Notes under the pieces: model-generated
Database searches by the model: none
Told to the model about the DNA's origin: nothing
Seen by the model: the letters and a program-made list of their open reading frames with translations, nothing else
Translations under genes and position numbers: made by a program
Shown: positions 8,900-25,176 of the stretch, piece by piece
How the letters are laid out: each line of letters opens with the position of its first letter
How positions within the stretch are numbered: position 1 is the first letter of the stretch
DNA from: Acuticoccus mangrovi
GTDB taxonomy: Bacteria; Pseudomonadota; Alphaproteobacteria; Rhizobiales; Amorphaceae
Direction of reading: 5' to 3'
Assembly: GCF_016411865.1 (NCBI RefSeq)
Contig: NZ_JAEKJA010000008.1
Location: 1 to 49,936 of the forward strand
DNA length: 49,936 nucleotides

Positions 8900-10198
8900 A
8901 TGACCGACTTCGGCCAGCGCGACGCTCTGATCTCCGAACGCATTCTGGAATCGATGCGCGACGGGGTGGTGAGTATCGACCTCACCGGCCGCATCATCAC
9001 CTTCAACGGCGCGGCGGGCCGCATCCTCGGCAAGAAGCCGGAGGACGTGCTCGGTCGCTCCTTCGCCGAGGAATTCCTCGCCGAGGAGAGCTTCGACGAC
9101 TTCAACGAGGTGGTGTTCAAGGCTGTGTACGAGGCGGCGACCACCCACTCGATCGAGATCGCCCTCAAGGTGGATGGTCAGCGCACCGACCTCGTCGTCG
9201 CCTCGAGCTTCCTGACGATGGAGGGCGAGGACGGCGAGGAGCAGCGCTTCGGCGTGGTGGTGGTGTTCTCCGACACCACGGAGGAGCGCAAGCGGCGCAA
9301 GATCAAGCGGCTCTTCGGCGAATATGTCGATCCGCGCATCGTCGACCGGATCCTGTCGAGCGAGGAGGCCTCGCGGTCGCGGCGCGGCGACATGACGATC
9401 TCGTTCGCCGACATGCGCGACTTCACCGGTTGGTCGGAGCGGCTCGACGCGGACGCGCTCGTCGACCTCCTCAACCGCTTCCTGACGGCGATGACGGAGC
9501 CCATCGGAGCCGCCGGCGGCATCACCGACAAATATATCGGCGACGCGGTGATGGCCTGCTGGGGTCCGCCCTTCACCGACGACGCGGGGCAGGCGCGGGA
9601 CGCGCTCAACGCCGCCCTCGGTCAGATGGAGGCGATCGCGCCGCTGCGGGCCGAGCTCGCCGCGGAAGGGGTGGCGGGAGCGGAGCGGATGGACGCCGTC
9701 GTGGGCGTTGCGACGGGCGACGTCCTCTCCGGCGACATCGGCCCGCCGTCGAGCCGCAACTTCACCGTCATCGGCAACGCGGTGAACCTTGCGGCGCGGC
9801 TGCAAGAGGCGGCGAAGCTCTACGGCCAGCACATTCTCGTCGCCGACGACACCGCCGAGCGGGCGGGCTCCGGCTTCGTGTTCCGTGAGATCGACCGCAT
9901 CACCGTGCGCGGCTCGCACCGGCCGGTGCGCGTCTATGCGCTGCTCGGCCGGCAGGGCGATGTCGCCGCGCCCGCCGTGGAGCTCGCCGCGCGCTACGGC
10001 GAGGCGCTCGCCGCTCTGCAGGCGCGCGACCTCGACGCGGCCGACGCCGGTTTCGCCGCCTGTCTGGAGATGGCGCCCGACGACCGGCCCGCCGCGCTGA
10101 TGCGGGGCCGCATCGCCGCCTATCGGCTCGACCCGCCGCCGGAGGACTGGGACGGGGTGTGGCGCGGGGCCGGGATGGCTCAGGCGGCGCGGAAGTAG
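8900..10198 (+). CDS. PAS domain-containing class III adenylate cyclase
   Basis: A 432-residue soluble protein: PAS domain (about 10-130), a short linker (TTEERKRRKIKRLFGEYVDPRIV), class III cyclase domain (about 160-345) and a C-terminal helical tail of about 75 residues that may be TPR-like. The catalytic set looks complete: metal aspartates D171 (FADMRD) and D215 (KYIGD), base-selecting K211 with T289, and transition-state N296 and R300 (NAVNLAARL). K/T favours ATP over GTP, so cAMP is the likely product. It begins 4 bases after ureG and may be read from the urease transcript. Its 3' end overlaps the convergent phosphatase gene by 19 bases. Confidence 0.9.
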   Translation: MTDFGQRDALISERILESMRDGVVSIDLTGRIITFNGAAGRILGKKPEDVLGRSFAEEFLAEESFDDFNEVVFKAVYEAATTHSIEIALKVDGQRTDLVVASSFLTMEGEDGEEQRFGVVVVFSDTTEERKRRKIKRLFGEYVDPRIVDRILSSEEASRSRRGDMTISFADMRDFTGWSERLDADALVDLLNRFLTAMTEPIGAAGGITDKYIGDAVMACWGPPFTDDAGQARDALNAALGQMEAIAPLRAELAAEGVAGAERMDAVVGVATGDVLSGDIGPPSSRNFTVIGNAVNLAARLQEAAKLYGQHILVADDTAERAGSGFVFREIDRITVRGSHRPVRVYALLGRQGDVAAPAVELAARYGEALAALQARDLDAADAGFAACLEMAPDDRPAALMRGRIAAYRLDPPPEDWDGVWRGAGMAQAARK

Positions 10199-12249
10199 CG
10201 CAGCGTCAGACAGGTGAGGTCGTCCGCCCGCTCCGCGCCCTTCTCGAAGGCGACCACGGCGTCGCGCACCGCCTCGTCGAGGGCGGCGGCGTCGTCGGTA
10301 TGGTGAAGCGCGACGGTGTCGACGAGCCGCGCGTCGCCGAACGCCTGGCTGTCGGCGTTGAAGGCCTCGGTCACGCCGTCGGTGAAGAGGAACAGCGTGT
10401 CGTCCGGGTGGAGGGTGACCGTCGCCTCGGTGAACTCGAAATCCTCGATCACGGCGAGGGCGGGGTCGCCGGCGCGCGGCAGCTCCGACACGGCGCCGGT
10501 CGTGCCGTTGGCGAGGAGCGGCGGGTTGTGGCCGGCGTTCACGAAGGTGAGCGAGCCGGTGTCGAGGTCGAGCACGCCGTGGAAGAGGGTCACGAACATC
10601 ATCTGCTCGTTGTCGGCGGCGAGGAAGGTGTTGACCTCGGTGACCGTCGCGGCGGGTGAGGGGGCCGACTGCGCCGTCGCCTTGATGAGGGTGCGGGTGA
10701 TCGCCATGAAGAGCGCCGCGGCGACGCCCTTGCCCGAGACGTCGGCGACGACGATGCCGAGCCGCCGATCGTCGATCATGAAGTAGTCGTAAAAGTCGCC
10801 GCCGACCTCCTTGGCCGTCTCCATCAGCCCGTAGATGCGGAAGGCGGGGTGCTCGGGAAGCGGGCGGGGGAGGAAGGAGCGCTGCAGCTCGCGGGCGATC
10901 TCGAGCTCCTGCTCCAGTCCGGCGAGGCGGGCGCGGGTGATGATCGCGTCCTGCAGCTCGCGGATGAGCTCGGTCAGCCGGCGGTGCTGGTCGGTGATCC
11001 GCTGGCTCATACCCTGGAGCACGGTGGCGAGCACGGCGAGCGCCTCGGTGGGGCGCTCGGCCGCGGCGGCGGTGGCGGCGGGGTCCGGCTTCGGCTCGGC
11101 CATCACGCGGCGCAGATCGGACAGGATCTCCTTGCGCCCGTCCTCGTCGAGGGTGCCGGCGAGGCGTTCGAGCTGGCGGCGGATGATGCGTTCCTGCCGC
11201 TGGCGCTGGCGGGCGATCGCTTCCTCCTGTTCCAGCAGTTGCAACGCGTTGCGGCGGAACACGGCGAGCGCCTCGCCGATGCGGCGGATCTCGCCGGTAC
11301 CGCTCACGGGCGTGGAGGGTTGGAGGTTCCCCTCCGACAGCTCGTGCAGCGTTTCGATGGCGCTCTCGAGCGGCATGAAGGCCTGCCGCAGGAAGACGTA
11401 GAGGCCGATGATCATGACGAGGCTGCCGAGGCCCACGGCGACGAGCCCGGTGCGCTCCAGCCGCCGCGTGGCGCTGAGGCTGTCGGTGGCGTCGCGCAGG
11501 GTGACGAGGGTCCCCGCGACGCCGCCCATCATCTCGTCCACCGGCGCGGCGGCGGCGAAGTAGAGACGACCGTCGGCGGACAGAAGCTCCGCCGCCGCGG
11601 TGCGGCGGGGCAAGGTGGGCGACACCTTCTCCCACAGGGTGGGATTGGTGCCGGCGATCATCCGGCCGCGCAGCGACATCAGATAGCTCGGCTCGCCGAG
11701 CCGGTCCGTCAGCTCCTGGAGGACTTCCTCGGCGTCGATCGCGAGGCTGAGGACGGCGCGCGGAACGCCGCTGATCGAGACCGCGCGGGCGGCGGTGATC
11801 ACGTAGCGGTCGGGCCGCTCCTGGCGCAGTCCGCCCACCGTCGCCGTGCCGGAGGTCAGCGCATCGATGGCGGGAGCGCCGAGGATGGGGCGGGCGCGGA
11901 AGACGGGCGCGTTGGCGGCGAGGAGCTCGCCGTCGAGGTCCAGAACCTGCACCATGATGCCCGGCGTGATGAGATCGGGCGAGTTGAGGATGACCTCGGT
12001 GATCTCCGCCGGGGTGAGGTTGGGTGCGGCGACCGAAAGGCGCGCGGCGAGCTCGGCGGCCGGCACCTCGAGATCGTCGGTCCGCTCGATGACGAGGCTC
12101 GACCAGAACGAGCGCTGGGCGCCGATGGCGATCTCGGCGAGGCGGTCCTGTTCGAGGCGGGCGCGCACGGTGCCGACGGCGACGAGGCTCCCGATGACGA
12201 CCACCAGGGCGATGGACAGGAGGAGGGTGATGCGGGTGCGCAGCAGCAT
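10180..12249 (-). CDS. Membrane sensor SpoIIE-type PP2C serine/threonine phosphatase (RsbU-like)
   Basis: A 689-residue protein. TM1 is at about residues 7-27, a periplasmic sensor region at 30-265, TM2 at about 268-288, HAMP at about 289-340, a long coiled coil at about 340-460 and a SpoIIE/PP2C domain at about 475-689. Catalytic metal ligands are present: D485 (GGDFYDYF), D503 (VADVSGKG), D624 (FTDGVTE), and D676/D677 (ADDLT). Such phosphatases dephosphorylate STAS anti-anti-sigma proteins, and one is encoded at 19456-19806. It is the last gene of the leftward sensor operon, 2 bases after the sensor-permease. The ATG lies just beyond the preceding gene's stop. Confidence 0.92.
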   Translation of the reverse strand: MLLRTRITLLLSIALVVVIGSLVAVGTVRARLEQDRLAEIAIGAQRSFWSSLVIERTDDLEVPAAELAARLSVAAPNLTPAEITEVILNSPDLITPGIMVQVLDLDGELLAANAPVFRARPILGAPAIDALTSGTATVGGLRQERPDRYVITAARAVSISGVPRAVLSLAIDAEEVLQELTDRLGEPSYLMSLRGRMIAGTNPTLWEKVSPTLPRRTAAAELLSADGRLYFAAAAPVDEMMGGVAGTLVTLRDATDSLSATRRLERTGLVAVGLGSLVMIIGLYVFLRQAFMPLESAIETLHELSEGNLQPSTPVSGTGEIRRIGEALAVFRRNALQLLEQEEAIARQRQRQERIIRRQLERLAGTLDEDGRKEILSDLRRVMAEPKPDPAATAAAAERPTEALAVLATVLQGMSQRITDQHRRLTELIRELQDAIITRARLAGLEQELEIARELQRSFLPRPLPEHPAFRIYGLMETAKEVGGDFYDYFMIDDRRLGIVVADVSGKGVAAALFMAITRTLIKATAQSAPSPAATVTEVNTFLAADNEQMMFVTLFHGVLDLDTGSLTFVNAGHNPPLLANGTTGAVSELPRAGDPALAVIEDFEFTEATVTLHPDDTLFLFTDGVTEAFNADSQAFGDARLVDTVALHHTDDAAALDEAVRDAVVAFEKGAERADDLTCLTLRYFRAA

Positions 12250-12251
12250 CG

Positions 12252-14141
12252 TCAGCGCCTCCGGCGCCGGCCGGCCGGCCGGATCGCGGCGAGAAGGCTC
12301 GCCCCGCCGAGGACCGCGGCCGCGAGGGTGGCCGAGCCGATGGAGGAGAGGCCCGTCAGATAGGTGGTGGCGTGGGAGGCCGCGGAGAGCACCATGGCGA
12401 AGGCGATCGTCATGGCGGCGGGCGGCGCGAAGGCACGGGCTCCGAGGGAGAGCATCGTAAGCCCGAGGCCGAGCCCGACGGCGATGGAGGTGATCGGGGC
12501 GGGCAGCGCGACGAGGCAGGCGCCGGCGAGGGCGAGGGCGCCGAGCGCCGCACCGACGGCGGGCGCCGCTCGCACGGCGAGTGCCGGCGCGAGCAGCGAG
12601 GCGACGCCGACGAGGCCGAATTGGAGCCCGATCGTCGCATAGTTCTCGCGCATGGCGATGCCGGACGTCTGGATGTCGGCCCAGGCGAAGACCGGGAAGG
12701 CGGCCGCGACGAGGGTGATCGCCTCGGCGAGGGCGAGCGCACCGGGGCTGGACGGCGCGAGGAGGTCGAGCCGCGTCCTGACGCGCTGCGGCGTGCGCGA
12801 GGCGCTGGCGATCGAGGCGAGTCCGACGATCACCACCACGACGCCGATGGTGGCGAAGGCCATGCGCCGTCCCTCCGCCTCGGCGAGGAGGGAGCCGACG
12901 ATCGGCCCCGCCGCCCCCGCCGCGAGAAACACGAGGGCGGCCCGCCAGGGCCGGCGTGCCGCCGCCCCTTCGGCGAGGAGCACCGTCCACACCGCCGTCC
13001 AGAGGCCGAAGCCGGTGACGAACACGATGAGGGCGAACGGCATCGCGTCGTGGACGAAATAGGTGGCGCCGAGCGCGACCCCGGCCGCGCTCATCGCGAA
13101 GAGGGTGATCGCCTTCGACCAGCGGCCGCCGAGGAGGAGGGCGAGGAGGAGCCCGAGGATCGCGCCGAGCCCGTCGGCGGCGACCGCCCCGGCGGCGGCG
13201 ATGGTGCTGAGGGGAGCGTCGCCGATCCGGTCGATGGCGAAGTTGGCGACGAGCGGGCGCGAAGCCTCCGCCGCCGCCATCGCCAGGAAGGGCCATGCGA
13301 GGCCCGCCCCCTCGCGCTCGATGCGGCGCACGAAGAGCCGGTTGAAGCGGTAGGCCCGGAGCGGGCGCATCGCCGCGTCGATGCGGCCGTGGAGGAGGTT
13401 GCTGGTGTCGAGGGCGCGCACCTCGTCCACCACCAGGAGGAGGCGGCGGTAGCTGCGTCGCAGCGGGCCGATGAGGCGCGCCGCGGCGGCGCCGAGCGGA
13501 GTGAGCGGCCCCGGCGGCGGCGGCGTGAAGTCGGCGAAGACGCCGCGGGCCACGCTGCGGCCGCCGGCGACGAAGCGGGCGCGCGGCAGGTCCACCCGCT
13601 CGAGCAGGGCGAAGCGCAGCGCGAGGCCCACCGCGAGGCCGGCGAGAAGGGCGACAGCGAGGGCGCTCGCGAGGATGTGCTCGCGGACGGCCTCGACCAC
13701 GTAGAGCGAGGGCCGCACGAGCACGGCGCCGCGCGTCTCGCCGACGCTGATCGGGGCGCGCATGTGCGTGGCCGCGTCGAACACCTGTCCCGGCTCGACG
13801 GCGTAGAGCACGTCCTCCGCCTCGTCGAGGATCGCGATGCCGGCAATCGACGGATTGGCGGCGAGCATGGCCTGCAGATGGGGCTCGACGCCGCGCATCT
13901 TGTCGAGCGGGATCCCGAGCGCCACGGCGTGCTCGATCTCCTCGGCGACGGCCTCGCCGATGGCGAGCGCCACCTCGTCGGACTTGATGGCGAGATCGTC
14001 GAAGGCGTTGCCGAAGGATCGCTCGATGGCGAGGAAGGCCGCGAGGAGGGCGAGGAGGCCGACGAGGGTGCCGACGAGCAGCGCGAGAAGGTCGGACCGC
14101 TCGGCCCGGCTCGCGTGCGAGGATCGAGGAGGTTGCGCCAC
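12252..14141 (-). CDS. Sensor-domain/MFS-like membrane chimera (leftward copy)
   Basis: A 629-residue membrane protein. TM1 is at about 18-39, then an extracytoplasmic domain with LGIPLDKM at 75-82, TM2 at about 157-181, a cytoplasmic linker, and from about residue 285 a ten-to-twelve-helix domain. That domain aligns by eye with the MFS domain of the protein at 15745-17742 (shared E-x-x-R-P-L/F start), but its MFS motif A is eroded. It may act as a receptor rather than a transporter. The GTG at 14141 is forced, because an in-frame stop (the upstream gene's TGA) lies 3 bases before it. It is tightly coupled to both neighbours. Confidence 0.82.
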   Translation of the reverse strand: MAQPPRSSHASRAERSDLLALLVGTLVGLLALLAAFLAIERSFGNAFDDLAIKSDEVALAIGEAVAEEIEHAVALGIPLDKMRGVEPHLQAMLAANPSIAGIAILDEAEDVLYAVEPGQVFDAATHMRAPISVGETRGAVLVRPSLYVVEAVREHILASALAVALLAGLAVGLALRFALLERVDLPRARFVAGGRSVARGVFADFTPPPPGPLTPLGAAAARLIGPLRRSYRRLLLVVDEVRALDTSNLLHGRIDAAMRPLRAYRFNRLFVRRIEREGAGLAWPFLAMAAAEASRPLVANFAIDRIGDAPLSTIAAAGAVAADGLGAILGLLLALLLGGRWSKAITLFAMSAAGVALGATYFVHDAMPFALIVFVTGFGLWTAVWTVLLAEGAAARRPWRAALVFLAAGAAGPIVGSLLAEAEGRRMAFATIGVVVVIVGLASIASASRTPQRVRTRLDLLAPSSPGALALAEAITLVAAAFPVFAWADIQTSGIAMRENYATIGLQFGLVGVASLLAPALAVRAAPAVGAALGALALAGACLVALPAPITSIAVGLGLGLTMLSLGARAFAPPAAMTIAFAMVLSAASHATTYLTGLSSIGSATLAAAVLGGASLLAAIRPAGRRRRR

Positions 14142-14144
14142 TTC

Positions 14145-14897
14145 TCAGACCTCCGCGTCGAGGCGGCGCAGCTCTTCGGCCGCCGTCTCGAGGGTGCGGG
14201 TGGCGGCGAGGGCGGTGACGACGGCCTCGTTGGAGGAGCTGCCGAGCGGCGTTGCGGGATCCGCGATCGGCTCGTGCCGGCTGATCGCGGCGAGCGCGCC
14301 CTCCATGTCGTGGTCGCGCCGCCGCATGACGAGGAAGCCGATGATGCCGGCGATCACGCTCGCCCCGAGCGTGATCGGGGCGGCGGCGACGAGGAGCGTC
14401 GGCACGCGCGTTAGCGGCAGCACCAGCGCGTCCTTGTCGATGATGAGAGCGACCCAGCCTTCGGTCTGGTCGAAGTCGTTGATGAGGGGACCGCCGAGGG
14501 TGATCGTCTCGGGCTCGGTGGCCCGCCACCGCGCGGCGCCGCGGCGGTTGCCGATGGCCTCGAGCCAGGGCGGCGGCACCGGCTCGCCGACGGCTCCGCG
14601 GTCGGTGGAAAAGAGCGTGATGCCGGTCTGGGAAAACACGTCGACGGCGAGGAGGCCCGGGGTGGACGCGAGCACCTCCTCGAGCAGCGGTTCGATCTGC
14701 TGCAGCTCGGCGAGCGGTAGGCCGAGCTGCAGGTTGCGCTCGATGGTCTCGTCCATGTCGCCGAGCACGAAGTCGAGCTTGGCCTCGGCGAGCCGCGCGT
14801 CGCCCTGCTCCACGACGCGGGCGGCCACCACCACGAAGGCGAGCAGCGCGGCGAGGGTCGCCAGACTGAGGAGGATCACGCCGCCGGTGCGTCCCAT
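14145..14897 (-). CDS. Two-TM extracytoplasmic sensor protein (leftward operon, first gene)
   Basis: A 250-residue protein with TM1 at about 7-29, a periplasmic Cache-like domain at about 30-165, TM2 at about 167-191 and a short cytoplasmic tail of about 55 residues without an enzymatic domain. The sensor domain carries LQLGLPLAELQQIEPLLEEVL and VDVFSQTGITLF, a pattern shared with three other proteins of this cluster. It is the first gene of the leftward operon, and the sensor-MFS gene follows 3 bases after its stop. It presumably signals through contact with the neighbouring chimera or phosphatase (inference). The family is unassigned. Confidence 0.75.
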   Translation of the reverse strand: MGRTGGVILLSLATLAALLAFVVVAARVVEQGDARLAEAKLDFVLGDMDETIERNLQLGLPLAELQQIEPLLEEVLASTPGLLAVDVFSQTGITLFSTDRGAVGEPVPPPWLEAIGNRRGAARWRATEPETITLGGPLINDFDQTEGWVALIIDKDALVLPLTRVPTLLVAAAPITLGASVIAGIIGFLVMRRRDHDMEGALAAISRHEPIADPATPLGSSSNEAVVTALAATRTLETAAEELRRLDAEV

Positions 14898-15053
14898 GGG
14901 GTCCGTCTATCTGGGTGAGGGGCCGAGGTCTGTAATCAAGTCCCGGCGAGCCCGTGTCAATTTCGTGTCCATCTCTTAGCGTGAAATTGGCAAGCAGCGT
15001 TGTGAGTGTCGCGCAGTGGCACTAGGCTGCGCCCGTAACGCGACACGAGGCCC
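14898..15053 (+). promoter_or_regulatory. Divergent promoter region of the two sensor operons
   Basis: 156 bases between two divergently transcribed sensor genes. It is less GC-rich than its surroundings. On the plus strand TTGTGA (15000-15005), 17 bases, then TAGGCT (15023-15028) could be a weak sigma-70 type promoter about 25 bases before the ATG at 15054. GAGG at 15047-15050 is the ribosome site. I see no clear operator. Confidence 0.4.
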
Positions 15054-15740
15054 ATGGGCAAACTCAGCCTGACCCTTCTTGTGGTTTTGTTCCCGCTGCT
15101 GGCCGCGTCGCTGGCGCTCGGCGCCTATCTCAACTACGCGAGCGTGCGCAACAGCTATATCGAGATGGTGGGCACGCGGATGCAGACCGTGGCGCGCCGC
15201 GTCGCGTCCGACGCGCAGGTCGCGCTGTCGATGGGCATGCCGCTCGCCGGGCAGAACGCGCTGGAGCGCCTGTTGACGCGCGAGGCCGCCGCCGACCCGA
15301 TGATTCGCTCGGTGGACGTCGTCGCCGCCGACGGCACCGTGCTCTTCTCCAGCGACCCGGTTCGCCGCGGGACGCGCGAGCAGGAGAGCGACCCGATGGC
15401 GGAGCGGCGGATGGCGTCGATCGTGTCGGCCTTCGACACCACCGAGGGGTTGGTGGTGACGCGCGCCTCCCGCCCCGCGCTCGACGCAGCGCTGGCGCGT
15501 GCGGGCGGTGGTATATTGACGGTCGCCGTCGCCGCACTCTCGTTGGCCGCGCTGGCTATTGCCATCGTCGTGGTGTTGGCGGTACGGGGCCTTACGCGGC
15601 GGCTGACCGACCGTGCGGCCACCGCCGCCGGTGAGGAGGTGCCGGCAGAGATGGTTCCGGTGATTGCCGAGATCGACGAGGCCCATGCCGCCATTCGCAG
15701 CCGCTGGGCCGCAAGCCGGCCGCCGGCCACGGGGAGCTGA
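15054..15740 (+). CDS. Two-TM extracytoplasmic sensor protein (rightward operon, first gene)
   Basis: A 228-residue protein with TM1 at about 5-27, a periplasmic domain at about 28-150, TM2 at about 154-177 and a short cytoplasmic tail of about 50 residues that may hold a partial HAMP. The domain carries LSMGMPLAGQNALERLL (59-74) and VDVVAADGTVLFSSD (87-101), the same layout as the leftward sensor at 14145-14897. There is no output domain. It stands 4 bases before the rightward sensor-MFS gene. The ATG has GAGG 3 bases upstream. It probably works as a signalling partner of the chimera (inference). Confidence 0.75.
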   Translation: MGKLSLTLLVVLFPLLAASLALGAYLNYASVRNSYIEMVGTRMQTVARRVASDAQVALSMGMPLAGQNALERLLTREAAADPMIRSVDVVAADGTVLFSSDPVRRGTREQESDPMAERRMASIVSAFDTTEGLVVTRASRPALDAALARAGGGILTVAVAALSLAALAIAIVVVLAVRGLTRRLTDRAATAAGEEVPAEMVPVIAEIDEAHAAIRSRWAASRPPATGS

Positions 15741-15744
15741 ACGG

Positions 15745-17742
15745 ATGCGTCGCTTCGATGGGGCTATTCTGCTGTGCGTCACCGCCATCCTGATGGCGGG
15801 GCTCGCCGCCATCTCGTGGCAGACGGTGCGCAGCGCCGAAGCGATCCTCCTGCCGGCGCTGGAACAGAAGGCCGACACGGTCGCCCGCTCCCTCTCGAGC
15901 CTCGTCGCCGAGGCGGTGGACTACGGCATTCCCCTCGACCGCATGGTGCGTGCCGACGAGGTGCTGAAGGACGCGATCGCCGAGAATGGCGACTTCGCCT
16001 ACATCGCGGTGGACGACAAGAGCGGCCGGACCCTCGCCTTCGCCGCAGCCGACGCCTACGCCGACATCCGCGGCGAGGACGACGCGGCGATGCGCACCGT
16101 GACGGCGCCGATCGAGCGGAACGGCCAGACGATCGCCGTCGTGGTGGTCGGCACGCCCGACGAGGTGGCGCGCACGGTGGTGCGAGAGCTGTGGCTCGAC
16201 GTGGCGGTGCTCCTGGTGGTGGCGCTCCTCGTCGCGCTGGAGCTCATCACCTTCGCCTTCTCGATCCCCTCCGCGGTGATGATGCGGGGCCTCGCCCAGC
16301 GGCTCGATGCGCTGCGGCGGGGCGACTTCCGGCCTCACCTGCCGCTTGCCGGCAGCGGTCCCCTCGCCGACGAGGTGACGGCCGTCGACACCGCCATCGC
16401 ACGCACGCGCGAGGATCACCGCCTGTTGCGCGAGGAGGCGATGGAGCGGGGCGACGAGGCGGCGCTCGAGGAGCTCGACCGGCTCGCCGCCCGCCATCAG
16501 CTCGAGGTGGCGCGGCACGAACCGCCGGTGAGCCTCGTCGCCGTGCGGGCCCCGGTGTTCCTCTTCTACCTCGCCGAGGAGATGACGCGGCCCTTCCTGC
16601 CGAGCTACATCGAGAGCATGGCGCGGCCCATCGCCGGACTGTCGGTGGAGTTCGTCATCGCGCTGCCGATCATCCTGTTCATGGCGCTGGTCGCCTTCCT
16701 GCAACCCTCGCTCAACGGCTGGACGGAGCGGATCGGCCGAGCGCGCTCGCTCAGAGGCGGGGCGGTGATCGCCCTCTTCGGCTATCTCGGCACGGCCGGG
16801 GCGACCGACATGAGCCAGTTGATCCTCTGCCGCGCCATCACCGCCATCGGCTTCGCCACGGTGTTCGTGTCGGCGCAGGGCTTCATCGTCGACCGCACGG
16901 GGGCGGAGAGCCGGGCGCGAGGCATCGGCCTCTTCGTCTCGGCGATCATGGCGGCGATGCTGTGCGGCCCGCCGATCGGCGGCATCGTGGCCGATCGGCT
17001 CGGCGTCAGCGCCGCCTTCGTCATGTCCGCGGCGATGGCGCTGATCGCCTATCTGTGCGCTCTCGTCGCCCTGCAGCGCGATCCGAAGCGCACGACGCCG
17101 CCCGCCCGCGCCGTCCGCATGTCCGACGTGATGGCGGTGCTGCGACAACCGGTGCTCTTCCTGCTCCTCATCGGCTGTGCGCTGCCGTCCAAGATGATCC
17201 TCATCGGCGTGTGCTTCTACTTCCTGCCGCTCGACCTCGCGGCGGACGGCTTCCAGCCCGCCGTCATCGGCCGCGTCCTGATGCTCTACGGCCTCGCCAT
17301 GCTGATCCTGGTGCCGATGATCTCGCGCGTTTCGGACGAGCGCAGCAAGCGCGTGCCCTACGTGGTGTTCGGCGGCGTCCTGTCGGGGCTCGCGGTCGCC
17401 CACCTCTTCCTGTGGCCGCAGCCTTGGGGGGGCGCGCTGATGGTGCTCCAGATCGGCCTCGCCCAGGGCATCTCCACCACGCCCCAGTCGGCGCTGGTGG
17501 GTGAGCTCGGCCGCCTGCACCTGCCGGAACTGTCCGAGGGGGGCATCTACGGCGTCTTCCGTCTGATCGAGCGCACCGGCACGGCGGTGGGACCGGCGAT
17601 GGTGGCGCTGATCTGGGGCGCGGCCTCCGGCGAGGCGGCCGTGGTGGCGATGGGCGTGCTTCTCGTCGTCGGAGCGCTGCTCTTCGGGCTCGCCTCGACG
17701 GGCCTCGGCGAGCGCACCGCTGCGGCGGGAGCGGGTAAATGA
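15745..17742 (+). CDS. Sensor-HAMP-MFS chimera (rightward copy)
   Basis: A 665-residue protein. TM1 is at about 7-25, then a periplasmic domain with YGIPLDRM (60-67), TM2 at about 150-172, a HAMP-like and coiled-coil linker to about 265 (RLDALRRGDFRPHLPLAGSG), then a twelve-helix MFS domain to about 655. The MFS part begins FYLAEEMTRPFLPSY and contains recognisable loop motifs (DRTGAESRARGIGLF, GGIVADRLG), so transport activity is plausible. Fusion of a chemoreceptor-type input to an MFS carrier is unusual. Its stop overlaps the ATG of the substrate-binding-protein gene (ATGA). GGGGAG precedes the ATG. Confidence 0.88.
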   Translation: MRRFDGAILLCVTAILMAGLAAISWQTVRSAEAILLPALEQKADTVARSLSSLVAEAVDYGIPLDRMVRADEVLKDAIAENGDFAYIAVDDKSGRTLAFAAADAYADIRGEDDAAMRTVTAPIERNGQTIAVVVVGTPDEVARTVVRELWLDVAVLLVVALLVALELITFAFSIPSAVMMRGLAQRLDALRRGDFRPHLPLAGSGPLADEVTAVDTAIARTREDHRLLREEAMERGDEAALEELDRLAARHQLEVARHEPPVSLVAVRAPVFLFYLAEEMTRPFLPSYIESMARPIAGLSVEFVIALPIILFMALVAFLQPSLNGWTERIGRARSLRGGAVIALFGYLGTAGATDMSQLILCRAITAIGFATVFVSAQGFIVDRTGAESRARGIGLFVSAIMAAMLCGPPIGGIVADRLGVSAAFVMSAAMALIAYLCALVALQRDPKRTTPPARAVRMSDVMAVLRQPVLFLLLIGCALPSKMILIGVCFYFLPLDLAADGFQPAVIGRVLMLYGLAMLILVPMISRVSDERSKRVPYVVFGGVLSGLAVAHLFLWPQPWGGALMVLQIGLAQGISTTPQSALVGELGRLHLPELSEGGIYGVFRLIERTGTAVGPAMVALIWGAASGEAAVVAMGVLLVVGALLFGLASTGLGERTAAAGAGK

Positions 17743-18743
17743 CGTCGACCTTCACCCGTCGGGCGACGCTGAAGCTCGCCGCCGGCCTCGCGGCGGTGCC
17801 GGTGGTCGGCCGCGCGCAGGGGCGCCCCTTCAAGATCTTCCAGATCACCTATCGCGGCGACACCGACGTGGAGCGCGGCTTCCGCGACTATTTCGATCAG
17901 CGCGGCATCCCGGTGGAGATCATCTCGAGGAGCGCCGAGCTCGACCCTTCGCGGGTGCCGGAGATCCTGAAGGAGGTGCGGGCCGAGAAGCCGGACCTCG
18001 TCTACACCTGGGGCACTCCGGTGACGATCGCCACCTTCGGCAAGGCGGGGGAGACGGACTCGGAGCGCTACATCACCGACATTCCGGGCGTCTTCACCAT
18101 GGTGTCGGCGCCGGAGAGCTCGGGCGTGGTGCCCTCGCGCGCATCCTCGGGGCGCAACATCACCGGCACGTCCCACGTGGTGCCGCCCGAGCCGCAGCTG
18201 CGGGCGATGGAAGCCTACCTGCCGTTCACCAAGCTCGGCGTGCTCTATACGCCCACGGAGCAGAACTCCATCGCCATTCTCGCGGCGCTGCGCGAACTCA
18301 CCAAGCCGATGGGCTTCACCCTGCTGGAGCGGACCTTCCACCTCGACGAGGCCGGCAAGCCCACCACCGAGGGGGCGGCCGATCTCGTGGCGGAGCTCGC
18401 CGAGGAAGGGGCGCAGTGGCTCTACTATCTGCCCGACACCTTCCTCTCCACCAACATCGACAAGGTGGCGCCGGTCGCGACGAGCCTCGACCTGCCCGGC
18501 TTCTCGGCGACCGAGCTCTTGCATCGCGACGCGCTGATCAGCCTCATCAGCCGCTACTATTCGCTCGGACAGCTCACCGCCTACAAGGCGGAGCAGATCC
18601 TCCTGCGGGGCGTCGATCCCGCCGACATTCCGATCGAGACGCTGAAGCGTTTCGCCCTCATCATCAACATGCCGCTGGCGCGCGAGCTGCAGCTCTACCC
18701 GCCTCTCGGAATGCTGAACTACGCCAATATCATCACCGACTAG
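17739..18743 (+). CDS. Orphan substrate-binding protein, ABC_sub_bind (TrpX-like) type
   Basis: A 334-residue periplasmic binding protein with a Tat-like signal (TRRATLKLAAGLA, residues 6-18, cleavage near GRAQG). The fold signature of PF04392 is visible: TWGTPVTIATFGKAG, then SSGRNITGTSHVVPPEPQL and KLGVLYTPTEQNS. No ABC permease or ATPase gene is near, which suggests ligand presentation to the adjacent sensor domains rather than uptake (inference). It is translationally coupled to the sensor-MFS gene, and a GNAT gene follows after 10 bases. Confidence 0.85.
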   Translation: MTSTFTRRATLKLAAGLAAVPVVGRAQGRPFKIFQITYRGDTDVERGFRDYFDQRGIPVEIISRSAELDPSRVPEILKEVRAEKPDLVYTWGTPVTIATFGKAGETDSERYITDIPGVFTMVSAPESSGVVPSRASSGRNITGTSHVVPPEPQLRAMEAYLPFTKLGVLYTPTEQNSIAILAALRELTKPMGFTLLERTFHLDEAGKPTTEGAADLVAELAEEGAQWLYYLPDTFLSTNIDKVAPVATSLDLPGFSATELLHRDALISLISRYYSLGQLTAYKAEQILLRGVDPADIPIETLKRFALIINMPLARELQLYPPLGMLNYANIITD

Positions 18744-18753
18744 GCGGCCTGAC

Positions 18754-19446
18754 ATGACGATCGCCCCTCCAACGTGGGCCGCCACCGACTTCCACACCGT
18801 CGATCTGTCCGTCGACGACGTTCCAGCGGTGTTCGCGCTCTACGCCGAATCGCTCGCGGCGGTGCCCGACCCGGCCGCGGTGCGGGCCGACGCGCCGTCC
18901 TTCTTCGAGAAGATCTTCGCCGTGGGCGGGGAGATCATCGGCCTGTTCGACGGGCTGGTGATGATCGGCTACGGCGTGATCAGGCCGGAGCTCGAGGAAG
19001 AGCACGACCGGGTCGGCCTCGACCGCGTGGTGCCCGCCGACGCGCCGATGCGGGTGCTCGACGGGTCGGCCGTGCGTCCCGCCTACTGGCGCCACGGGCT
19101 GCAGCGCACGACGATCGACGCCCGCATCGCCCGCGCGGCCGAGCTTGGCGCCACGCACGTGATCGCCAAGGCCTCGCCGGGCAACGTGCCGTCGATGCGC
19201 AACCTCACCAAGCAGGGCTTCCATATCCTGGGACGGGTGATGAAGCCCTATGGCTGGCGCTACGTGCATCATCGGCCGGTGCATCTCACCGCGGCCGAGC
19301 CCATCGAGGGGGAGTGGTATCCGGCCCATGACGTCGACGGCGCCGAGGCGATGTTCCGCGAGGGTCGTGCCGCCTTCGCCGCTAAGCGGGACGACGCCGG
19401 CGAGCCCATGCTGAAGTTCACGCTGGGGCCGGACGCCCCGCGCTGA
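18754..19446 (+). CDS. GNAT family N-acetyltransferase
   Basis: A 230-residue cytoplasmic protein with a GNAT fold. The acetyl-CoA region corresponds to VRPAYWRHGLQRTTIDARIARAAELG, followed by the GNVPSMRNLTKQGF stretch typical of motif B. The C-terminal part (PYGWRYVHHRPV onward) is less familiar. It is the last gene of the rightward sensor operon. The acceptor may be a small molecule or a protein of the signalling system, and the sequence does not decide. Confidence 0.8.
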   Translation: MTIAPPTWAATDFHTVDLSVDDVPAVFALYAESLAAVPDPAAVRADAPSFFEKIFAVGGEIIGLFDGLVMIGYGVIRPELEEEHDRVGLDRVVPADAPMRVLDGSAVRPAYWRHGLQRTTIDARIARAAELGATHVIAKASPGNVPSMRNLTKQGFHILGRVMKPYGWRYVHHRPVHLTAAEPIEGEWYPAHDVDGAEAMFREGRAAFAAKRDDAGEPMLKFTLGPDAPR

Positions 19447-19455
19447 GCGGCCGCC

Positions 19456-19806
19456 TCAGGCGGCGCGGGCGACGGAGACCGCCTCGGTCCGCGTCGGCGT
19501 CACCTCGAAGAGGCGCAGGAAGCCGGAGATCTCGAACACGTCGCGGATCGCGGGCTGCAGCGTGCACAGCACGATCGCGCCGCCGCCCGCCTTCGCCTTC
19601 TTGCCGCCGAGGAGGATGACGCGCAGTCCCGCGCTCGAGATGTACTCCACCTTGGCGAGGTCGATGACGATGCGCGCGACCCCCTGACCGAGGCGGCCGA
19701 GGATCTCGGTCTCGAGCGTCTTCGCCGTCGCCGAATCGATGCGTCCGCTGAGGACGAGCACGAGGACGGGCCCCACCTCTTCGTGTTGGATCGCAAGTTC
19801 GCTCAC
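19456..19806 (-). CDS. STAS domain anti-sigma factor antagonist (SpoIIAA/RsbV-like)
   Basis: A 116-residue single STAS domain. The conserved turn VEYISSAGLRVIL places the phosphorylatable serine at S58, equivalent to the regulatory serine of SpoIIAA. It starts with GTG at 19806, 3 bases after the stop of the RsbW-like gene, so the two are co-translated. By family precedent it is phosphorylated by the adjacent kinase and dephosphorylated by a SpoIIE-type phosphatase such as the one at 10180-12249. No sigma factor gene is in the window, so the final target is unknown. Confidence 0.92.
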   Translation of the reverse strand: MSELAIQHEEVGPVLVLVLSGRIDSATAKTLETEILGRLGQGVARIVIDLAKVEYISSAGLRVILLGGKKAKAGGGAIVLCTLQPAIRDVFEISGFLRLFEVTPTRTEAVSVARAA

Positions 19807-19809
19807 CAG

Positions 19810-20235
19810 TCAGCCTTTCTCGATCGCGAGGACGAAGCGCGTCACGTTGTGGGCGTCGTCCCGCCGGTAGGATAGGTCCCGCGTCAGCGTCCGCACGAGG
19901 TGCACGCCGAGGCCGCCGATGGGGCGCTCGTCGAGGGGCATCGTGACGTCCGGCGCGGGGCGGGAGAGGGGGTCGAAGGCGATGCCGTTGTCGCGCACTT
20001 CGCCGACGATGTCCGCGCCGTCGCGCGACACACTCACGGCGACGCGAGGCCCCCCGGGCGCCGCACCGTGGTTGATCACGTTGGCGATGAGCTCCTCCAG
20101 GATAAGGTTGAGGTGCATCACCGTCGCCATGGGAAGTTGTTGCGTCTCGCCGAAAGCCTCGACGGCCTCGACCATCCGATCGAGGTCGTCCATCGTCGTC
20201 AGTATGAGGTCGATGGCTTTGTCCACCTCGTCCAT
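19810..20235 (-). CDS. RsbW/SpoIIAB-like serine kinase, HATPase_c domain
   Basis: A 141-residue GHKL ATPase. The N-box LEELIANVINHG gives E48, N52 and H56, the G1 box is DNGIAFDP (82-89) and the G2 box is IGGLGVHLVRT. The domain is complete. RsbW-type proteins bind and phosphorylate STAS antagonists and sequester a sigma factor or another effector. The ATG at 20235 is the first plausible start for the domain. The gene pairs with the STAS gene 3 bases downstream and runs antiparallel to the sensor operon ending at 19446. Confidence 0.9.
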   Translation of the reverse strand: MDEVDKAIDLILTTMDDLDRMVEAVEAFGETQQLPMATVMHLNLILEELIANVINHGAAPGGPRVAVSVSRDGADIVGEVRDNGIAFDPLSRPAPDVTMPLDERPIGGLGVHLVRTLTRDLSYRRDDAHNVTRFVLAIEKG

Positions 20236-24023: not shown

Positions 24024-24473
24024 TCAGCGCTGCAGCTTGTCGGACAGGTTGCCGATCTCGCCCATGAACGTCGCCGCGCGGCTCGCGATCATCGCCTGCA
24101 GGCGGCGGGCGGCATCCGGATATTCTTCGAGGATCCTCAGCATCTGGCTGCGCGGCAGCACGAGAAGCTCGCACGTCGTCTGCGCCGCGGCGCTGGAGCC
24201 CCGCGTGATCGGCACGATGAGGGCGAGCTCGTCGATGAGCTGACCGACGCCGGCGACCCTTGGAGAGAGACTTTCGCTCGCCGGGGTCAGCCGAAGCTGT
24301 CCGCCGAGCACGAGGATGGCACTGTCGGCCTGTTCCCCGGCCTCGAACAGCGCTTGCCGAGGCTTGAGGGTGACAGGCTCGCTGCCGAAGGCGAGCAGTT
24401 TGAGCGCGTCCTCGTTCAACACTTTGAGGAACGGGGCATTGCGCATCACCGCCATGTGACGGGCGAGACTCAC
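24024..24473 (-). CDS. Cyclic nucleotide-binding (CNB) domain protein without DNA-binding domain
   Basis: A 149-residue protein made of one CRP-type CNB domain (FLKVLNEDALKLLAFGSEPVTLK, LFEAGEQADSAILVLGG, DELALIVPITRGSSA) and a C-terminal helix. No helix-turn-helix follows, unlike Crp/Fnr regulators. The GTG at 24473 begins 1 base after the stop of the response-regulator gene, so the two are coupled. It may modulate the partner regulator in response to a nucleotide. Ligand binding is not certain, because the phosphate-binding cassette is only partly conserved. Confidence 0.82.
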   Translation of the reverse strand: MSLARHMAVMRNAPFLKVLNEDALKLLAFGSEPVTLKPRQALFEAGEQADSAILVLGGQLRLTPASESLSPRVAGVGQLIDELALIVPITRGSSAAAQTTCELLVLPRSQMLRILEEYPDAARRLQAMIASRAATFMGEIGNLSDKLQR

Positions 24474-24474
24474 G

Positions 24475-25176
24475 TTAGATGTTCGCCGCCCGCGGCATGA
24501 GCTTGTAGCCGCCACCTTCGGTGACGAGCAGCTCGGCTGCGGCCGGGTTCTTCTCCATTTTTTGGCGTAGTCGGTAGATGTGGGTTTCGAGGGTGTGGGT
24601 GGTCACGCCGGAGTTGTAGCCCCAAACCTCGTGCAGGAGAACGTCCCGCGTGATCGGCCTCTCGCCGGCGCGGTAGAGGAACTTCAAGATGGCCGTCTCC
24701 TTCTCGGTGAGGCGCACGCGGCGGCCGTCCGGCTGGAGCAGGGCCTTGGCGGCCGGCTTGAAGGTGTAGTGGCCGATGACGAAGGTCGCGTCCTCGCTCT
24801 GGTCGAACTGCCTCAGGTGCGCGCGGATGCGGGCGAGGAGCACGGCGAAGCGGAACGGCTTCGTCACATAGTCGTTGGCGCCGGCCTCGAGACCGACGAT
24901 GGCGTCGGCGTCGGTGGTGTGGCCGGTCAGCATGATGATCGGCGCCTTGAACCCCGCCGAGCGCATCAGCCGCACCGCTTCGCGCCCATCGAGGTCGGGC
25001 AAGCCCACGTCGACGATGGCGAGCGCGATGTCGCCGGCCTTTGCGGCGGCGACGCCTTTGGTGGCACTGTCGGTGGCGATGACGGCGAACTCGTCGTAAA
25101 GTTCGATCTGCTCGCGCAGACCTTCACGCAGGTCCTCGTCGTCGTCGATGATCAGGATGGTCCGCTTGGTCACCAC
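24475..25176 (-). CDS. OmpR-type response regulator transcription factor
   Basis: A 233-residue regulator. The receiver domain (1-120) has the acidic pocket DDDED (11-15), phospho-acceptor D56 (VDVGLPD), T84 and K106 (TKPF). The C-terminal winged helix contains LTEKETAILKFLYRAGERPITRDVLLHEVWGY and THTLETHIYRLRQKM. There is no histidine kinase gene beside it, so the cognate kinase must lie elsewhere. The gene starts with GTG (25176 or 25173) and is followed by the CNB-domain gene. Confidence 0.93.
   Translation of the reverse strand: MVTKRTILIIDDDEDLREGLREQIELYDEFAVIATDSATKGVAAAKAGDIALAIVDVGLPDLDGREAVRLMRSAGFKAPIIMLTGHTTDADAIVGLEAGANDYVTKPFRFAVLLARIRAHLRQFDQSEDATFVIGHYTFKPAAKALLQPDGRRVRLTEKETAILKFLYRAGERPITRDVLLHEVWGYNSGVTTHTLETHIYRLRQKMEKNPAAAELLVTEGGGYKLMPRAANI

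Follow-up and report, generated by a model that had tools for sequence, protein, structure and literature searches.

Several described systems resemble parts of the locus reported here. In UhpABC and other transporter-like sensors, an MFS receptor lies beside a signaling enzyme, a histidine kinase. Partner switches of the SpoIIA/Rsb type consist of a phosphatase (SpoIIE or RsbU), a kinase (SpoIIAB or RsbW), and an antagonist (SpoIIAA or RsbV). As described for SiaABCD of Pseudomonas aeruginosa, a membrane PP2C phosphatase, a kinase, and a STAS-like protein can also partner-switch a second-messenger (diguanylate) cyclase rather than a sigma factor (PMC7647112, PMC8457831), and RbaV/RbaW of Rhodobacter capsulatus is an alphaproteobacterial partner switch for which, in the account given in PMC3999984, a sigma target was not found.

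We analyzed a window of 49,936 nucleotides from Acuticoccus mangrovi (the whole stretch of DNA under study), in which a ten-gene cassette occupies positions 8900-20235. Both end coordinates hold to the base, with the cyclase gene beginning at 8900 on the forward strand and the HATPase gene at 20235 on the reverse strand. A first-pass annotation had named ten genes here at near-zero spacing; all ten were present, most of them with agreeing Pfam domains, and neighbors were separated by 2-10-base gaps or short overlaps, the sole exception being one 156-base divergent gap. The cassette is laid out as follows.

8900..10198, forward: soluble PAS plus class III adenylate cyclase, 432 aa (Pfam PAS 1.6e-13, Guanylate_cyc 1.2e-17)
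10180..12249, reverse: SpoIIE-type PP2C phosphatase with a periplasmic dCache-like plus HAMP transducer half, 689 aa (PF07228 3.5e-48, weak HAMP 0.004)
12252..14141, reverse: MFS2, sensor plus degenerate MFS, 629 aa (hhalign against MFS1, structure model; key charges lost)
14145..14897, reverse: SEN2, short two-TM sensor, 250 aa (hhalign against SEN1; position conserved in relatives)
14898..15053, no strand: divergent intergenic region, 156 bases, presumed from the gene layout to hold both promoters
15054..15740, forward: SEN1, short two-TM sensor, 228 aa (dCache_1 4e-5, weak and under the cut-off)
15745..17742, forward: MFS1, sCache-like sensor plus HAMP-like linker plus 12-TM MFS, 665 aa (MFS_1 4.8e-36, residues 272-617)
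17739..18743, forward: periplasmic binding protein, PF04392, TrpX-like (ABC_sub_bind 1.9e-23)
18754..19446, forward: GNAT-family acetyltransferase, 230 aa (Pfam 4.3e-6 and 6e-6; in 42 of 59 loci)
19456..19806, reverse: stand-alone STAS protein of anti-sigma-antagonist type, 116 aa (Pfam STAS 1.3e-19)
19810..20235, reverse: RsbW/SpoIIAB-like HATPase kinase, 141 aa (HATPase_c_2 3.5e-20)

Scanning the divergent gap (14898-15053) with the sigma-70 consensus returned no sigma-70-like site. A tRNA-Gly call at 11593-11677 lay inside the SpoIIE gene on the opposite strand and was probably spurious.

The claim that the cassette holds the three parts of a SpoIIA/Rsb switch was borne out, and judged by sequence the catalytic residues of all three appear intact. 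In the phosphatase, aspartates D485, D503, D624, D676, and D677, which we take to be the metal-binding aspartates of PP2C, were invariant in 31 sequences; in the kinase, E48, N52, D82, G107, G108, and G110, presumably the N and G boxes of the HATPase, were invariant in 19 sequences; and in the STAS protein S57 and S58 were invariant in 16 sequences, either being a candidate phosphorylatable serine. The STAS protein also scored above the cut-off of the anti-sigma-antagonist model TIGR00377 (79.8 bits). Within the source genome the cassette SpoIIE was the single SpoIIE match, the cassette STAS was the only one of four matches to lie in a short reading frame (117 aa, against 393-606 aa for the other three), and the cassette kinase was by far the best of 14 HATPase_c_2 matches (1.3e-19 against 3.1e-9). 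Like SpoIIA/Rsb, the three parts are inherited together. Unlike SpoIIA/Rsb, no sigma factor was found among the window and neighboring ORFs scanned (part of the ORFs in the 50 kb), as the first-pass annotation had also noted, the input would be a sensor-MFS/binding-protein complex, and a cyclase can stand in for the phosphatase's output half (see below). The transducer half of SpoIIE was homologous to a dCache_3-HAMP cyclase. Against the SiaA model NF038263, SpoIIE scored 40.3 bits over its PP2C part, under the cut-off of 700.

Profile comparisons indicated that all four sensors are homologous: SEN2 aligned with SEN1 (hhalign E 6.3e-29), SEN1 with the N-terminus of MFS1 (E 1.9e-12), and MFS2 with MFS1 over the full length (probability 100, E 5.7e-39, 525 columns). 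No Pfam match was returned for MFS2 or SEN2, and SEN1 had no match by sequence among solved structures. The predicted structure of MFS1 (pLDDT 87.3, pTM 0.80) retrieved VMAT2 as the best Foldseek hit (5.3e-12), followed by MdfA and NorA, and the MFS2 model (pLDDT 85.4) matched MdfA and NorA at E about 2e-6. Both proteins thus have the MFS fold, and two sensor-MFS chimeras are indeed present, but the second looks like a dead permease: eight charged membrane residues kept by MFS1 in 35/35 sequences are mostly lost in MFS2. MFS1 is probably a working, transport-coupled sensor and MFS2 probably a pseudo-permease that does not transport. In contrast to UhpABC, with which the cassette shares an MFS protein adjoining a signaling enzyme, the MFS protein here comes with a periplasmic sensor and a HAMP-like linker of its own, and a PP2C, a cyclase, or a Ser/Thr kinase serves as the output.

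The solved structures nearest to the binding protein were 6hni, 3lkv, and 3lft, TrpX-type PF04392 proteins that belong to the same fold family along almost the full length of the chain. Unlike the TrpX type, the cassette protein has no adjoining ABC permease or ATPase and scored 76.5 bits against the TrpX model NF041285, under its cut-off of 390. Other genes recurring at 59 loci (defined below) were alanine racemase (20), Na/Pi cotransporter (8), and alpha/beta hydrolase (4), associations that suggest a ligand chemistry of amino acid, amine, or phosphate; the binding protein and sensors would recognize some small molecule, which may be an amino acid or an amine.

The first-pass annotation had held that its proposal would fall if the chimera genes of related genomes were unlinked to SpoIIE, STAS, and RsbW genes. 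A neighborhood search found linkage instead: among 101 genomes searched, source genome included, a SpoIIE gene lay at most 5.2 kb away in 14/14 chimera-bearing genomes and was the sole SpoIIE match of the genome in 10 of these 14. SpoIIE was not exclusive to chimera genomes, since 53/101 genomes gave a match and six chimera-less genomes a strong one (E 1e-40 or better). Gene order and divergent layout repeated in relatives, so the clustering is not due to chance, and the cassette was found in many genera of three proteobacterial classes, going by record titles.

For locus counts, L080 and L138 were removed from 78 rows with a full MFS1, and 59 of the remaining 76 had flanks of at least 7.5 kb on each side. 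Left out of this count were judged copies (L039-L042, of L018, L021, L023, and L022, respectively), further copies (L080 of L030, MFS1 100% identical; L093 of L069; L122 of L051), loci with no full MFS1 (L064, L082) or with a sensor-less MFS (L103, L138), and L121 (3.5 kb). Three of 12 plasmid matches were examined. At the 59 distinct loci we found the binding protein 58 times, SpoIIE 43, the kinase 39, and STAS 34. None of the 16 loci lacking SpoIIE carried a kinase or STAS gene, and kinase and SpoIIE were associated at a Fisher value of 4e-11, which assumes independent loci, as these are not. When loci were drawn more evenly across the class (21 non-own matches, of which two were already in the set and G800, at a contig end, was left out, so that 18 were taken), SpoIIE was rarer and linked in 4/9 full-flank loci.

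The genes of the proposed chimera-switch wiring therefore belong together, but SpoIIE itself is not an obligatory partner of the chimera. A sensor, a sensor-HAMP-MFS protein, and the PF04392 binding protein make up the core; SpoIIE, kinase, and STAS are one of several outputs. At two loci (L124 and L126) SpoIIE residues 1-419 (E about 1e-95) were fused to an adenylate cyclase (E about 1e-91 or better), and the fusion occupied the place of SpoIIE after SEN2-MFS2, with MFS1 retained and no kinase or STAS gene near it. Elsewhere, sensors were fused to SpoIIE (L074, L133, L134), SEN1 to MFS1 (L074), and an RsbW-like HATPase to SEN1-MFS1 (L083). At some loci the core was partnered by a dCache-HAMP cyclase or a dCache-HAMP Ser/Thr kinase, and some cores sat within type VI secretion clusters, on contigs that also carried a Ser/Thr kinase gene. 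One weak apparent SpoIIE match (L079, score 21) fell on the dCache portion of a Ser/Thr kinase and is excluded from the SpoIIE counts. Type VI secretion was discarded as an output in the source organism, whose genome gave no match to VipB/TssC (PF05943). Finding the same sensing parts beside other outputs suggests a plug-and-play means, apparently undescribed, of relaying an external chemical cue into the cell; in agreement with the earlier remark that no such combination was known from the literature, an open-access literature search found none.

Full-length relatives of the PAS-cyclase (55-75%) occurred in 10 of the 101 genomes, its own included, and only beside the cassette, with SpoIIE adjoining in all ten. 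In a 36-row tree, its catalytic domain was nearest to that of the transducer-cyclase fusion, with moderate support (89/86); the nearest ordinary relative, from G043, had no other cassette gene within 19 kb. In the window the cyclase starts 4 bases past UreG and so may be cotranscribed with the urease operon. A role as a mere urease neighbor was rejected: UreG adjoined in 2/9 of the relatives' cyclase loci and SpoIIE in 9/9. Adenylate cyclases were present in 16/59 loci, up to three of them (L061 and L132 named) neither PAS-cyclase nor transducer fusion; the cyclase near the switch at L132, CHASE2-like as read from its sequence, grouped with the relatives' ordinary cyclases and was thus not counted as support. 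Outside the window's clade, most SpoIIE loci had no cyclase within reach, so another target must exist there. The PAS-cyclase is a clade-specific member, and we infer that it is the likeliest switch target within the clade.

We judge it somewhat probable that the cassette encodes modular envelope-to-cytoplasm signaling, in which a transceptor complex that reads a ligand operates a partner switch lacking a local sigma factor, adenylate cyclase being the likeliest output in the clade. The binding protein, SEN1/SEN2, and the MFS1/MFS2 chimeras would read a small molecule and, through putative direct contacts, control which state the dCache-HAMP half of SpoIIE adopts. The RsbW-like kinase would phosphorylate STAS and the PP2C domain dephosphorylate it; partner exchange between kinase and STAS, in a presumed direction, would constitute the switch. 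The neighboring PAS-cyclase would be the output in the clade, in which case the ligand would set cAMP. More tentatively, and at somewhat less than even confidence, the core may represent a so far undescribed class of input complex for bacterial signaling that plugs into interchangeable effectors, here a partner switch targeting adenylate cyclase as a cAMP counterpart of SiaABCD. The likeness to SiaABCD lies in a membrane PP2C, a kinase, and a STAS protein that would partner-switch a nucleotide cyclase rather than a sigma factor; unlike SiaABCD as described in PMC7647112 and PMC8457831, the adjoining cyclase is adenylate rather than diguanylate, and an MFS protein and a binding protein are present.

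It is unlikely, though credible, that the kinase instead serves as the anti-sigma partner of a sigma factor whose gene lies elsewhere, with the cyclase a neighbor that has its own job. The TIGR00377 match and the anti-sigma type of the kinase fit such a classical switch, and a partner can be unlinked in known switches (PMC3999984); the lack of a sigma gene in the neighboring ORFs scanned, the direct transducer-cyclase fusions (L124, L126), and cyclase linkage in 10/10 genomes having it argue against it. RbaV/RbaW is likewise an alphaproteobacterial switch without a sigma target found; unlike the cassette, the words MFS, transporter, and HAMP are absent from the main text of PMC3999984. Still less probable is a transport role, in which STAS and kinase, acting on MFS1 via its HAMP linker, would let the ligand or an acetylated product cross the membrane once the binding protein is loaded, with wider signaling secondary. 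The charges kept by MFS1 and mostly not by MFS2, the metabolic side suggested by GNAT, alanine racemase, and Na/Pi cotransporter genes, and the HATPase fusion at L083 would suit it, but the two cyclase-fusion loci retain MFS1 without kinase or STAS, and cores also occur within type VI clusters and beside Ser/Thr kinases. That a urease operon, cyclase, transporter operon, and stress switch merely adjoin is very improbable and was rejected, because despite the closeness of cyclase and UreG the set recurs across genera and classes, its parts are fused to one another, and linkage in relatives (14/14 genomes and the 59-locus counts) is strong.

If the signaling reading holds, permease-like receptors gain a route into Ser/Thr phospho-signaling and cAMP, the orphan PF04392 protein without an ABC transporter is explained, and what sigma-less partner switches act on becomes directly testable, the transducer-cyclase fusions naming a concrete candidate target. 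The location of cores in type VI clusters would likewise make them candidate environmental sensors for those systems. Finally, as a point against the main reading, in two genus-mates STAS and kinase were absent from the locus, and both genomes carried a STAS relative elsewhere.

Ten ORFs of the window occupy 8900-20235, and this layout confirmed the ten-gene cluster reported in the first-pass annotation; spacing inside each gene run is 2-10 bases, or the genes overlap.

8900-10198, +, PAS-adenylate cyclase
10180-12249, -, SpoIIE
12252-14141, -, MFS2 (sensor-MFS chimera)
14145-14897, -, SEN2 (short two-TM sensor)
divergent gap of 156 bases between SEN2 (-) and SEN1 (+)
15054-15740, +, SEN1 (short two-TM sensor)
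15745-17742, +, MFS1 (sensor-MFS chimera)
17739-18743, +, binding protein
18754-19446, +, GNAT
19456-19806, -, STAS
19810-20235, -, HATPase

A urease operon (UreD, urease alpha, UreF and UreG, the last assigned from a cobW/HypB/UreG family match in Pfam) lies upstream of the cassette, and cytochrome c and other housekeeping genes lie downstream. The host genome is 97% complete, with 5.46 Mb in 65 contigs. It contains a single SpoIIE match and a single chimera of the MFS1 kind; the cassette STAS is its sole short-frame STAS and the cassette HATPase its best HATPase_c_2 match. The nearest relative, G004, is of the same genus (MFS1 71% identical). An ARAGORN tRNA-Gly call at 11593-11677 (+), inside the SpoIIE gene on the opposite strand, is probably spurious.

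The proposed linkage of chimera and SpoIIE was borne out by a neighbourhood search of 101 genomes: the chimera was present in 14 (own included), a strong SpoIIE lay within 5.2 kb of it in all 14, and in 10 of these it was the genome's only SpoIIE match. SpoIIE matches occurred in 53 of the 101 genomes, and six without a chimera (G010, G019, G042, G046, G058, G084) had SpoIIE at E 1e-40 or better, which argues against an exclusive pairing. No chimera, SpoIIE or full-length cyclase was found in the genus-mate G001 (89% complete). Scanning genome contigs turned up 45 loci, whose record titles point to Alpha-, Beta- and Gammaproteobacteria, and the chimera was present in 9/398 genomes of an even phylum draw and 22/385 of an even class draw (own included in each).

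Profile HMMs were built from the window and loci L018-L030 and run on these and further loci. The sample, collected by likeness to MFS1, held 76 distinct loci with a full chimera including its sensor, 59 of them flanked by 7.5 kb or more on each side; nine of the related loci belong to the genus or family of the window or to a near clade. Among the 59, the binding protein was present at 58, SpoIIE at 43, GNAT at 42, the kinase at 39, STAS at 34, alanine racemase at 20, a cyclase at 16, a Na/Pi cotransporter at 8 and an alpha/beta hydrolase at 4. SpoIIE was present at all 39 kinase loci and all 34 STAS loci, and neither kinase nor STAS was found at the 16 SpoIIE-less loci; Fisher's test (SpoIIE vs kinase 4e-11, vs STAS 2e-8) is only a rough guide because the loci are related to each other. 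Of the new loci from the class draw, nine have full flanks: the binding protein was present at eight of them, SpoIIE was linked at four and the kinase at three; the core (sensor, chimera and PF04392 binding protein) is constant across these loci, but the switch (SpoIIE, kinase and STAS) is not. SpoIIE lacked a nearby kinase at four loci (L018, L022, L047, L133), and a STAS relative lies elsewhere in the genomes of L018 (G004, 69% identical) and L022 (G006, 60%, with one internal TGA). We have very little doubt that the genes of the cassette function as a unit.

Alanine racemase, absent from the window cassette, sits between GNAT and STAS/HATPase in L045, L060 and others, and the Na/Pi cotransporter lies near kinase and STAS genes in L055-L063, L067, L074 and L095.

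The switch proteins keep the PP2C aspartates of SpoIIE (31/31 sequences), the N- and G-box residues of the HATPase (19/19) and S57 and S58 of the STAS protein (16/16), residues whose roles are known from their families. The SpoIIE N-terminal half alone gave a weak HAMP match only; it aligned with the dCache-HAMP halves of Ser/Thr kinases and of a cyclase (hhalign probability 91, E 1.1e-6), and it matched the first 427 residues of a protein at L124 (E ~1e-95) that scores above Pfam's thresholds for both dCache_3 and HAMP. The HATPase gene of L048 (15129-15671, -) and the SpoIIE gene of L059 (5700-7660, -) are each split over two frames, through a broken gene or sequencing error.

On the input side, SEN1 is homologous to SEN2 (hhalign E 6.3e-29) and to the MFS1 N-terminus (E 1.9e-12), and MFS2, despite having no Pfam match, aligns as a homologue of MFS1 along 525 columns that extend through the sensor part; by these homologies the cassette holds four copies of one predicted sensor. 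The AlphaFold2 model of MFS1 (alignment of 35 sequences; pLDDT 87.3, pTM 0.80) starts with a long helix, followed by a small four-strand domain (86-138) and another membrane helix (139-171); a helical stretch (175-235) then occupies the expected place of a HAMP-like linker, ahead of an MFS body with VMAT1/2, MdfA and NorA as Foldseek neighbours; the MFS2 model is also MFS-type. Eight charged residues of MFS1 are invariant (35/35), and their retention in MFS2 is E278 0/17, E279 3/17, R282 6/17, R363 12/17, K483 0/17, R606 1/17, E609 0/17 and R610 0/17. In eight Aquabacter/Azorhizobium-type loci (L055, L056, L057, L059, L060, L062, L063, L067) the MFS2 match stops near profile position 260/626, in frames of 276-360 aa, from which the permease part is gone. 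Given these invariant and mostly lost charges and the missing permease parts, MFS1 seems to be a sensor competent for transport, and MFS2 a sensor whose pseudo-permease is dispensable. In sequence the binding protein comes closest to the solved PF04392 proteins 6hni, 3lkv and 3lft, which include aromatic amino acid binders; GNAT, alanine racemase and the VMAT-like permease body hint weakly at an amino acid or amine as ligand.

Fusions join parts of the system within single frames: an MFS2-type sensor with complete SpoIIE (999 aa) and a SEN1-like sensor with MFS1 (804 aa) at L074, HATPase, SEN1 and MFS1 at L083 (1161 aa; HATPase_c_2 and MFS_1 confirmed by Pfam), and sensor with SpoIIE at L133 and L134 (987 and 973 aa). 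These predicted proteins, mostly from metagenome assemblies, put sensors in physical connection with the phosphatase and with a kinase-type domain.

The signalling interpretation, sensor-permease chimeras wired to a SpoIIA/Rsb partner switch, was partly supported, as SpoIIE, kinase and STAS are conserved together, but it had to be extended, as the core also lies beside other outputs. L124 and L126 (two species, one genus) carry, in SpoIIE's place after SEN2-MFS2, a 729-aa protein in which a match to positions 1-419 of the SpoIIE profile is followed by an adenylate cyclase matching positions 123-422 of the window's cyclase profile, each half at E ~1e-90 or better; kinase and STAS were not found within ~9 kb at either locus. 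L061 has a dCache-HAMP-cyclase upstream, and L077, L079 (Pfam) and L081 (tblastn) a divergent Ser/Thr kinase-dCache-HAMP protein ~40% identical to it in the dCache-HAMP part. The L061 record is a metagenome bin under the title Bordetella parapertussis, a name that may not fit the DNA. Type VI secretion clusters house the core in five gammaproteobacterial loci: by Pfam, L097 (ClpV-like ATPase, TssF, TssG, VasE/TssK, DotU, IcmF and T6SS FHA protein) and L094 (VgrG-type protein, DUF6931 and ImpA), and further L098, L096 and L102, assigned by likeness to these and partly confirmed by Pfam. A Ser/Thr kinase gene lies 9-25 kb away on the same contig in the four T6SS-locus genomes examined (G190, G342, G421, G249), and VipB had no match in the window's genome. 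A Vibrio plasmid is among these T6SS-embedded loci. No output was found among the neighbours scanned, a part of the total, at L066, L099, L101, L129, L130 and L136.

In the open-access literature, with subscription papers mostly outside its scope, we found no description of SpoIIE/STAS with an MFS sensor and binding protein, and the first-pass annotation likewise knew of no published system of such composition. PMC7647112 and PMC8457831 treat SiaABCD; passages of PMC8256260, on STAS-only proteins, gave no match for MFS or adenylate cyclase. PMC3999984 describes RbaVW, for which a sigma partner was not found, and states that such systems can control enzymes; the relevant passages of PMC4822843 name serine phosphatases, cyclases and Ser/Thr kinases among Cache-domain outputs and leave MFS unmentioned. 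The switch is of a known kind; the input core, and the exchange of outputs around it, appear not to have been described before.

Full-length relatives of the window PAS-cyclase, with 55-75% identity and coverage of 96% or more, occurred in nine other genomes of the 101, and in all ten genomes with this form it adjoins SpoIIE; the next best cyclase matches were at most 41% identical. None was found in the four other chimera genomes (G013, G063, G079, G099), and L043 and L044 gave two further linked cases. Cyclase domains were compared in a 36-row tree: the 12 linked PAS-cyclases group together (support 100/99), the two transducer-fused cyclases sit next to them with moderate support (89/86), and all fall inside a 15-row group (99/98), which also takes in one HAMP-cyclase from an unrelated place. 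This linkage and tree placing lead us to propose cAMP as the output: sensing would set cAMP directly through the transducer-cyclase fusion of L124/L126, and through the partner switch at loci with SpoIIE. For the window's clade, our tentative reading is that the partner switch targets the cyclase, a claim whose odds we place slightly short of even. About 4 kb from the HATPase gene, at 24024-25176 (-), a stand-alone cyclic-nucleotide-binding protein adjoins an OmpR-type response regulator and is a possible candidate cAMP reader.
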